A DNA stretch of 64,000 nt. It comes from Pseudothermotoga thermarum DSM 5069 (GTDB lineage: Bacteria > Thermotogota > Thermotogae > Thermotogales > DSM-5069). The position numbers and the translations under genes were made by a program. Location of the stretch: assembly GCF_000217815.1 (NCBI RefSeq), contig NC_015707.1:620001-684000 (forward strand), read 5' to 3'. Positions 60,388 through 63,261 of this stretch are shown here, piece after piece; position 1 is the first letter of the stretch; each line of letters opens with the position of its first letter. Under the pieces are notes generated by a model. The model made no database searches. It was not told where the DNA came from and was given only the letters and a program-made list of their open reading frames with translations.

Positions 60388-60416
60388 ATTATACACTCAT
60401 GAAAAAATTTTGTCAA
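60388..60416 (-). promoter_or_regulatory. Consensus minus-strand promoter 2
   Basis: On the minus strand, TTGACA (60416-60411), exactly 17 bases, then TATAAT (60393-60388). The transcript would run from about 60381 to the terminator at about 60270, about 110 nt. Confidence 0.75.
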
Positions 60417-60419
60417 ACA

Positions 60420-60425
60420 ACTTGG
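60420..60425. repeat. Left target-site duplication
   Basis: ACTTGG occurs directly before the left inverted repeat of the insertion sequence and again at 61326-61331 after its right end. Confidence 0.75.
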
Positions 60426-61325
60426 GAGTCTGTTCGAAAAATCAGGAATACACTTATTGTCCCATCAATCAAAGTGTTTCAAATAACCCTCGACAAAAAT
60501 ATACCCTCCTAATAAACAACAACAAAAATATTACCTTTACCCAGTTGTACAGTATCATCTTCACCCATATCCTCTTCTTCGCCATCTGCATGCTCTTTGT
60601 ACCTTCACATCTGCCATACGCATTCTTTATCTTCCCTATCACTTGCTCAACTACATACCTCTCCTTGTACTTCTCCCTGTTGGTTTCGTACATCTCTTTC
60701 ACCTTACCCCTCAAAGGATTCCTAACCTTCGTGTGTAATGTATCCCTCACCGGAACCAGCACAAGTTCCGCCCGCTCAAGTAATCTCCCCAGTAGCTCCA
60801 CACTCATCCTGTAAAGTGCATCCCCTATCACACATCCAGCCTTTACCCACGTCCTCTCCATCAATCCCAACAAAAGTTTCCTCTCGTCACTGTATGCTGG
60901 TCCCATCCTTACCCCTACAAGTATTGCTTCCCCTTTTTCTTCCTTCCCCTCATCCAACTCAGCCTTTGCTTGTCATCGTATCCAAAGCCTGTTCCATCTA
61001 CTACTATCTGCTCAAGCTTTTCACCTACCAATAATGAAGCGTTGAAATCGCAGGCATCTTCTTTTTGAATATCTCTTCAAGATAAAAAACCGTGTCTCTA
61101 AACGACCTTCTCTCAGAGTATTCTCTTGGTCTGCCACGTTTCTTCTTACAACAAGTCTCTTTCAGCTCATCCTCAATAAGTTGCAGTAAACTCTTAATCA
61201 TCTTCACGGATAATCTTTTCAGTGAATATTTTCTCCTCATACAGAGTCTTCCTTCCTTCGGTGAAGTGTTTTTAAGGATTATATCTCATCTTCGGAATAT
61301 TCAAGCCCTTTTTTCGAACACACTC
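60426..61325 (-). mobile_element. Insertion sequence of 900 bp with intact ends and degraded transposase
   Basis: The ends are inverted repeats: GAGTCTGTTCGAAAAA at 60426-60441 and its complement, GAGTGTGTTCGAAAAA read on the minus strand, at 61325-61310 (15 of 16 match). Both are flanked by ACTTGG. A minus-strand promoter (TTGAAT, 15 bases, TATAAT at 61283-61278) precedes the transposase. The transposase is of the DDE type by its VVDGTGF, VIGDALYR and RYVVEQVIGKIKNAYG segments; family assignment (IS4/IS5 group) is uncertain. Confidence 0.85.
60469..61240 (-). pseudogene. Transposase fragments (DDE type)
   Basis: The reading frame starts at ATG 61240, continues through KKKRGRPREYSERRSFRDTV and stops at TAG 61025. 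A second frame continues VGEKLEQIVVDGTGFGYDD…WMRGRK, and a third, open to 60469, contains VGVRMGPAYSDERKLL, VIGDALYR and YVVEQVIGKIKN. Two frameshifts, at about 61027 and 60945, break the protein. The joined parts total about 260 residues, which seems short for DDE transposases of this kind, so internal deletion is also possible. Confidence 0.8.
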
Positions 61326-61331
61326 ACTTGG
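61326..61331. repeat. Right target-site duplication
   Basis: ACTTGG, the match of 60420-60425, lies directly after the right inverted repeat. The uraA promoter begins four bases later. Confidence 0.75.
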
Positions 61332-61334
61332 TAC

Positions 61335-61363
61335 TTGACCAAATAAACTCTCGAAGGTAAAAT
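61335..61363 (+). promoter_or_regulatory. Promoter of uraA
   Basis: TTGACC (61335-61340), exactly 17 bases, TAAAAT (61358-61363). The start would be near 61370, giving a leader of about 50 nt. Confidence 0.85.
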
Positions 61364-61377
61364 TTAGAAGAACGCGT

Positions 61378-61412
61378 TCCTTTAAACTGCTCCAGTGAGG
61401 GCAGAAAGGAGG
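61378..61412 (+). promoter_or_regulatory. PyrR binding loop overlapping the uraA Shine-Dalgarno sequence
   Basis: The leader folds as TCCTTT (61378-61383) with AAAGGA (61405-61410), an AAA bulge on the 5' side, then CTGC (61387-61390) with GCAG (61401-61404), closed by TCCAGTGAGG. This matches the PyrR recognition hairpin of pyr operons, where the loop reads UCCAGAGAGG. The AAAGGAGG at 61405-61412 that serves ATG 61421 is part of the lower stem, so binding of PyrR would hide it. Confidence 0.85.
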
Positions 61413-61420
61413 ATTAGTGT

Positions 61421-62641
61421 ATGATTGATAACCCGGTCCCCCTTGTTCAAGAGAAAGTCACTGGATGGAAGTTTTTCGCCCTATCTTTGCAACACTTCAT
61501 TGCTATGTTTGGAGCCACCGTTCTTGTACCATTGTTAACAGGTCTTGATCCACTTGTAGCTCTTTTCACGGCAGGTTTAGGTACCCTTGTGTTTCACGCG
61601 TGCACTGCAGGTGCTGTCCCTGTTTTTCTAGGTTCAAGTTTTGCTTTCATTGCTCCTGTTCTTCTTGTCAAGGAAAGGTTTAAAGACCTGCGCTATGCAA
61701 CTGGAGGTATTGTGATAGCAGGACTGGTTTATCTTCTTTTTGCGCTTTTAGCTTGGCTCGTGGGAGTCGAAAAGGTCAAAAAACTCTTTCCTCCTGTTGT
61801 CACTGGTCCAATAATCATTTTGATTGGTTTGACCTTAAGTCCTGTGGCAATTCAGATGGCTAGTAGCAATTGGTTTATTGCTGCAGTTGTAATAATCACT
61901 GTAATAATAGTTTCGGCAGTTTTAAAAGGCTTTTGGAATCTTGTACCTGTTCTAATAGGTGTTTCAGTTGGATACCTTGTTTCAATATTCACTGGTCAGG
62001 TTGATTTTACCCCTATTCAACAAGCAAGCTGGTTTGATATACCAAAGTTCATGCTCCCAATTTTTGAATGGTCAGCAATTGTTACAATCGCACCTGTGGC
62101 TTTGGCAACAGTTATGGAGCATATAGGGGATATAACTACCAATGGGGCTGTGGTTGGAAAGAACTTTTTCGAATACCCTGGACTTCACAGAACCTTGATT
62201 GGTGATGGCCTTGCCACATCTGTTGCAGGTTTGGTTGGAGGGCCTGCAAACACAACTTACAGTGAAAACACAGGAGTTCTAGCGCTCACAAGAGTTTATG
62301 ATCCAAGGGTTTTAAGAGGGGCGGCTTTGCTAGCAATTGTTGCATCGTTCATTGCAAAATTTGGTGCTGTGCTTAGAACTCTTCCAAGCTCAGTGATTGG
62401 TGGAATCAGTTTGATACTTTTTGGAATGATTGCATCAATTGGAATAAGGACTTTGGTAAACGCAAAGGTTGATTTTTCAAAACCAAAAAATTTGCTTGTA
62501 GCTTCTTTGATTCTCACGATAGGCCTGGGAGGAGCTTCCTTCAAAATTGGAGTAGTTGAGCTTAAAGGGATCAGTCTTGCAGCGATTGTTGGTATATTGG
62601 CCAACATTTTAATACCAGATAAATTTGCCAACGATTGTTAA
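61421..62641 (+). CDS. uraA: Uracil permease, UraA/NCS2 family
   Basis: The protein has about 13 membrane helices. Typical segments are LSLQHFIAMFGATVLVPLLTGLDP (residues about 20-43), GSSFAFIAPVLL, PPVVTGPIIILIGLTLSPVA, APVALATVMEHIGDITTNGAVVG and GLVGGPANTTYSENTGVLALT, the substrate-site helices of UraA. It imports uracil with protons. The PyrR-type leader supports uracil or another pyrimidine as substrate. The end overlaps the region before the next gene. Confidence 0.93.
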   Translation: MIDNPVPLVQEKVTGWKFFALSLQHFIAMFGATVLVPLLTGLDPLVALFTAGLGTLVFHACTAGAVPVFLGSSFAFIAPVLLVKERFKDLRYATGGIVIAGLVYLLFALLAWLVGVEKVKKLFPPVVTGPIIILIGLTLSPVAIQMASSNWFIAAVVIITVIIVSAVLKGFWNLVPVLIGVSVGYLVSIFTGQVDFTPIQQASWFDIPKFMLPIFEWSAIVTIAPVALATVMEHIGDITTNGAVVGKNFFEYPGLHRTLIGDGLATSVAGLVGGPANTTYSENTGVLALTRVYDPRVLRGAALLAIVASFIAKFGAVLRTLPSSVIGGISLILFGMIASIGIRTLVNAKVDFSKPKNLLVASLILTIGLGGASFKIGVVELKGISLAAIVGILANILIPDKFANDC

Positions 62642-62673
62642 AATTTGCTACAATTTTGCTGGGAGGAAGGAAG

Positions 62674-63261
62674 CTGAATATTCATAGAGTTTTAATCAGT
62701 GTTTGGGATAAGACAGGAATACTTGATTTTGTCAGTGCCTTGAGTGGTAAGGGAATTGAAATTATAGCCACTCAAGGTACTGCTTCTTTTTTGGCAAGCC
62801 ACAATATTCCAGTGAAACCAATAGAGGAGCTAACTGGTTCTTCCAATTTACTGGATGGATCGTTGAAGACAATTCATCATCGAATTTTTGCGGCTATATT
62901 GGCAAAGTCTACAGAAGAACACATAGATCAGTTGAAAAAACTTGGTGTTGAACCGATCGACATGGTTGTGGTAAATTTAAGACCTTTGAATTATGAATCA
63001 ACCACGGACGAAAAGCAATTGCTCGAAAGAATCGACATCGGTGGGGTTGCCTTGTTGAGGGCAGCTGCAAAAAATTATAGAAACGTGGTTCCAGTTTGCG
63101 ATTACAATGACTTTAAAGAGATACTTGATTCGATAGAAAAATGTGGGGATATAACACTTTATCACAGAAGAAAACTGTGCGTCAAAGCTTTCAAAAAATG
63201 CGCAGAATATGATATGCAGGTTAGTCAAATTTTGGCACAGCTTTTTGCTGTCGAGTTGTAA
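62674..63261 (+). CDS. Stand-alone PurH N-terminal-like protein (IMP cyclohydrolase-like)
   Basis: The sequence resembles the N-terminal IMP cyclohydrolase domain of PurH: RVLISVWDKTGILDF, EIIATQGTASFLASHNIPV, GSLKTIHHRI and IDIGGVALLRAAAKNYRNV. The usual (V/I)KTLHPKI reads LKTIHHRI and STGGTA reads ATQGTA. The C-terminal formyltransferase domain is missing and comF follows directly. The chosen start is CTG 62674, with GGGAGG ending 7 bases before it; the upstream TTG 62635 has no ribosome site and would add 13 residues. Activity as cyclohydrolase is uncertain because of the changes. Confidence 0.78.
   Translation: MNIHRVLISVWDKTGILDFVSALSGKGIEIIATQGTASFLASHNIPVKPIEELTGSSNLLDGSLKTIHHRIFAAILAKSTEEHIDQLKKLGVEPIDMVVVNLRPLNYESTTDEKQLLERIDIGGVALLRAAAKNYRNVVPVCDYNDFKEILDSIEKCGDITLYHRRKLCVKAFKKCAEYDMQVSQILAQLFAVEL

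Follow-up and report, generated by a model that had tools for sequence, protein, structure and literature searches.

The leader of uraA is probably a translational switch operated by PyrR, a reading to which we assign a probability of roughly 0.87; it lies in a window of 64,000 nucleotides, the whole stretch of DNA analyzed here, and positions below are those of the window unless a contig is named. In a pyrimidine-rich state, signaled by UMP/UTP, PyrR would bind the CCAGTGAGG loop and stabilize a hairpin whose lower stem holds part of the uraA Shine–Dalgarno (SD) sequence, such that the ribosome would be shut out and the uracil importer not made. When pyrimidines are scarce, PyrR would depart and the ribosome could open the weaker naked hairpin. 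Binding by PyrR, its ligand, and repression and its direction are what we infer from known PyrR biochemistry, while the hairpin, its loop, the SD overlap, the short leader, the pyrR gene, conservation, and co-occurrence are read from the sequence. The initial annotation had proposed repression of translation through occlusion of the SD by PyrR, and that proposal finds strong support at the level of sequence. The parts of the leader are as follows:

61335–61363, plus strand: predicted promoter by consensus match, with −35 TTGACC (61335–61340), a 17-nt spacer, and −10 TAAAAT (61358–61363)
about 61369–61371, plus strand: transcript start, predicted from the promoter
61378–61410, plus strand: PyrR-type hairpin, with lower stem TCCTTT/AAAGGA, AAA bulge, and upper stem CTGCTC/GGGCAG
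61378–61383, 61384–61386, and 61387–61392: 5′ lower arm TCCTTT, bulge AAA, and 5′ upper arm CTGCTC of the hairpin
61393–61398, 61399–61404, and 61405–61410: loop CAGTGA, 3′ upper arm GGGCAG, and 3′ lower arm AAAGGA of the hairpin
61392–61400, plus strand: putative PyrR recognition loop CCAGTGAGG, stem-closing pairs included, as aligned to the RF00515 consensus
61407–61412, plus strand: uraA SD (AGGAGG), 8 nt upstream of the ATG and partly within the 3′ lower arm of the hairpin
61421–62641, plus strand: uraA, likely an NCS2 family uracil permease by profile match, 406 amino acids, ATG at 61421

The promoter agrees with the consensus at 10 of 12 positions in the promoter scan, and reading the window alongside that scan confirms the coordinates first proposed, with a promoter ending at 61363, an ATG at 61421, and a leader of about 50 nt. 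For the gene itself, the best NCBIfam model is uracil permease NF007995 (3e-119; 398 bits against a cut-off of 477), and the score exceeds the cut-off of the NCS2 superfamily model TIGR00801. The product of 61421–62641 is an NCS2 nucleobase symporter, for which the name uraA is likely rather than certain because the NF007995 score falls under the strict cut-off.

Mobile DNA lies close by. An IS5-like insertion sequence, with transposase pieces on the minus strand, occupies 60408–61329 and ends only ~6–8 bp upstream of the uraA −35 box; two further copies of the element are found at C1:~501000 and ~503000, and the copy in the window carries an additional stretch of ~107 bp at ~61061–61167. Directly behind uraA, 62635–63261 encodes only the N-terminal (IMP cyclohydrolase) part of PurH. 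No ATG, GTG, or TTG follows the likely SD of this gene (GGGAGGAAGG), and a CTG at ~62676 may be its start.

That the hairpin is of the PyrR type is indicated by covariance models. In a cmscan of a 401-nt region, the Rfam family RF00515 (PyrR) was the top match at 33.9 bits (E 0.0047), and other weak Rfam matches in the region, among them the L31-Firmicutes leader (E 1.6), were taken as chance. The alignment spans the whole binding loop CCAGUGAGG, the unpaired A-rich bulge, and both stems, features that the uraA leader shares with the RF00515 attenuators of Bacillus and relatives. Unlike those attenuators, the uraA leader has neither antiterminator nor terminator: the terminator half of the model is without counterpart, 71 model positions facing only one nucleotide of the leader, and it is because this Bacillus-type half is missing that the score stays below the gathering score of 54 and the leader is absent from gathering-score scans. 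Because a terminator is part of what the Rfam PyrR model expects, leaders of this class escape it.

Recognition by a model built on attenuators is also what would speak for Bacillus-type transcription attenuation by PyrR, in which the loop would act as anti-antiterminator within a longer leader that also holds an antiterminator and a terminator. Such a reading is extremely unlikely given the unmatched terminator half and a leader of about 50 nt, similarly short in relatives; the scan of the leader found no terminator-like site between promoter and uraA start codon, and no antiterminator lies there either. Across all 26 looped uraA leaders examined, the −10 box ends 10–28 nt before the hairpin, too close for an antiterminator and a terminator to fit. 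Taken by themselves, the promoter scores of several AT-rich relatives do not beat those of shuffles, but the position is consistent. The initial annotation had judged the leader too short for the Bacillus arrangement, and the judgment holds here and in the 26 leaders: in place of a longer transcript with a terminator before uraA, we find no terminator in the window and, in all 26 leaders, a −10 box at that short distance from the hairpin.

A second model, R1, was built from 24 leaders, that of the window among them. R1 scores the uraA leader at 61 bits (E 1e-14), and its search of the 2.04-Mb genome returned no other site better than E 0.73; the uraA hairpin is therefore not a product of chance. 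The genome carries one confident PyrR-type loop only, at uraA. The match to the PyrR binding loop that was first noted is thus borne out by the RF00515 alignment and by R1, and the search for further copies it called for yielded none that is confident. Simple patterns gave additional candidates, all rejected: TCCAGNGAGG occurs at two more sites in the genome, neither fronting a same-strand gene with this stem, and CCNGNGAGG occurs at 64, of which the first 30 were folded and only the uraA copy forms this hairpin. Minus-strand CCNGNGAGG sites had been folded on the plus strand, and their exclusion rests on the R1 search.

Folding of the leader recovers the hairpin, at −18.4 kcal/mol, whereas shuffled sequences average −12.5 (z −2.25). 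The lower stem had been described as the SD itself; the overlap is real, but the PyrR-type register, TCCTTT/AAAGGA, hides the SD only in part. A shifted register, UCCUUU/GGAGGA, would hide the full SD; in ViennaRNA the two registers have almost equal energies at 37 °C, and the PyrR-type one is favored at 70 °C. By the same program the hairpin has a free energy near −13 to −14 kcal/mol at 37 °C and near −4 kcal/mol at 70 °C, where the SD of the naked hairpin has a predicted mean unpaired probability of 0.27. The protein-free hairpin would accordingly be marginal at the temperature of a thermophile, the growth temperature being assumed, yet would still pair most of the SD. Since the naked hairpin is predicted to pair much of the SD even at 70 °C, the regulatory margin left to PyrR is uncertain.

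These predictions also lend something to a hairpin that inhibits translation independently of PyrR, such as an RNA thermometer or a static brake on uraA: the naked structure pairs the SD and weakens with temperature. A static hairpin, however, needs no particular loop letters, whereas the CCNGNGAGG letters are kept in all aligned relatives, and the loop is missing wherever pyrR is absent. We regard this explanation as very unlikely.

Loop and regulator go together in relatives. A search for uraA covered 61 genomes, and 30 of the loci were read: 25 have the loop, its lower stem containing the SD, and five are without it. All 25 genomes with the uraA loop have pyrR, and none of the five without it does. 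R1 was then run over 103 genomes of the phylum, with an E below 1e-4 taken as a confident match. A confident loop is present in 31 of the 103, every one of them pyrR-positive; pyrR is present in 42, and none of the 61 pyrR-less genomes has a confident loop (Fisher p 2e-17 over the 103 genomes, a value overstated by their relatedness). Joint absence is seen within a genus too, in G032 as against its congeners G028, G030, and G039, and in family f9 loop and pyrR occur together in three genomes and are both missing from most. With loop and pyrR so tightly coupled across the 103 genomes, the mechanism lends itself readily to testing.

Eleven pyrR genomes are without a confident R1 loop (G046, G048, G052, G054, G064–G067, G070, G071, and G101). 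Weak R1 matches in G099, G089, G052, and G038:C3 were dropped, there being no CCNGNGAGG loop.

Pairing within the hairpin is kept as well. In the 24-leader alignment 242 of 242 cells are paired (100%), and sliding the pairing partners lowers the paired share to 72% or less. Compensatory G-C to C-G swaps occur in the upper stem at pairs 17–30 and 18–29; in a wider alignment, which adds three family f9 uraA leaders and three purE leaders to the 24, double-sided changes are seen at three pairs. Variation in the lower stem is slight, and the covariation therefore supports the upper stem only; near-invariance of the lower stem is as would be expected if one of its arms is an SD.

Overlap of the SD by the hairpin is kept in all aligned leaders, which bears on how bound PyrR would act. 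It may be that PyrR binds as proposed but has its chief effect on the stability of the mRNA or on Rho-dependent termination, not on initiation, since degradation or termination by Rho is a frequent fate of untranslated mRNAs. The universal overlap instead points to initiation as the primary step, with decay or polarity secondary, and we consider a main action on stability or termination quite unlikely.

The regulator required by the translational switch is encoded in the genome, as a single copy of pyrR at G000:C1:811944–812459 (227 bits against a cut-off of 138), where its absence would have spoken against the initial annotation. Its top PDB matches are all PyrR, the closest eight at E 1e-57 to 6e-53, and it conserves VDRGHRELPIR and GKNLPTS, segments that hold RNA-binding residues in B. 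subtilis PyrR. The gene is unlinked to any pyr gene; it lies shortly downstream of a putative tgt and upstream of a putative priA, names that were read from the translations.

Translational repression by PyrR is not without precedent. Fields and Switzer reportedly described PyrR-dependent repression of this kind for the pyr operon of Mycobacterium smegmatis, where the PyrR loop is said to lie in a short leader free of terminator and antiterminator and to overlap the first ribosome-binding site. To our knowledge, it has been demonstrated only in mycobacteria. The same features recur at uraA: pyrR is present, the loop lies in the initially transcribed region of a short leader, the first ribosome-binding site is overlapped, and the leader has no antiterminator or terminator. 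What differs is the regulated gene, here the transporter uraA rather than the pyr operon, the unlinked position of pyrR, and the host, a member of the Thermotogota. The initial annotation had seen in uraA a simpler form than attenuation, which is a fair description, but it is no new principle, the form being known from M. smegmatis. The uraA switch would accordingly belong to a known mechanism rather than to a new kind, in a lineage and at a gene for which no earlier report was found; PyrR translational repression is predicted to extend to a thermophilic phylum and a transporter gene. Searches of open-licence papers turned up none that describes PyrR sites ahead of pur genes or within leaders of Thermotogota, which is weak evidence of novelty. 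Fields and Switzer 2007 (J Bacteriol 189:6236) is cited in PMC10672894 and PMC13328217.

A scan of the whole collection for the loop pattern, in which 80 loci were read among the matches listed, suggests that this layout is spread further. Among those matches, which include other phyla, at least 47 loci, most of them in Actinomycetota, have an SD-containing loop immediately upstream of pyrR; at further loci the gene behind the loop is pyrB, carB, or uraA. Several Bacillota and one Thermus show a very short first ORF and then a putative terminator. Pseudothermotoga sp. RSWP20 (L219) and Thermosipho sp. (L155) are among the matches, with leaders identical to ones read in relatives. For Thermus pyr genes, PyrR attenuation coupled to a leader peptide has been proposed, and the Thermus locus L232 has that layout. 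Common to the Thermus form and the uraA leader is a PyrR loop that carries the SD of the first ORF; in Thermus, however, that ORF encodes a short leader peptide and a terminator comes after it, whereas in the window the first ORF is uraA itself.

Leaders before pyrC and purE in relatives resemble the Thermus form more than the leader of the window does. In the pyrC type (loci L141–L146, in G012, G042, G041, G034, G022, and G038), the loop sits at the start codon of a leader ORF of 68–83 codons (VNLVQRGQ...) whose reading frame crosses an intrinsic terminator in front of pyrC-pyrK-pyrD. Outside close pairs these ORFs are little conserved past the loop, and all are open beyond the terminator, for which the chance is 0.002–0.015 each by a rough estimate that treats related genomes as independent. 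In the purE type (L133–L137 and L151, in G026, G018, G014, G016, G020, and G043), the loop bears the SD of a leader ORF of 13–67 codons that is not annotated. Upstream of purE, this ORF stops next to, within, or past a terminator-like hairpin, which in G043 has a poor T-tail. Downstream of purE, where read, are purC, purS, purQ, and purL, with purS and purL named by position and reading.

Both leader types fit a scheme in which PyrR would block translation of the leader and so let the terminator form. For the purE leaders, control of the purine operon purE-purC-purS-purQ-purL by PyrR is possible; they hint that purine and pyrimidine synthesis may be coordinated through PyrR and, if this use is real, purine synthesis would be placed under a pyrimidine sensor. 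More broadly, we lean slightly toward the idea that PyrR of this lineage acts through ribosome access and not through a Bacillus-type antiterminator, with a hairpin of ~35 nt put to use in three ways: at the SD of uraA in the window and in relatives, at the start codon of the pyrC leader ORF, whose translation would break the terminator, and at the SD of the purE-C-S-Q-L leader ORF.

Upstream of the genome's own pyrC-K-D-F-E operon, a leader ORF of 33 codons extends across an intrinsic terminator (L272:3375–3540; C1:1935374–1935539). This leader has no recognizable PyrR loop, and another sensor, for instance UTP-dependent pausing, is possible there. Similar leader ORFs with terminators are present in G005 and G007.
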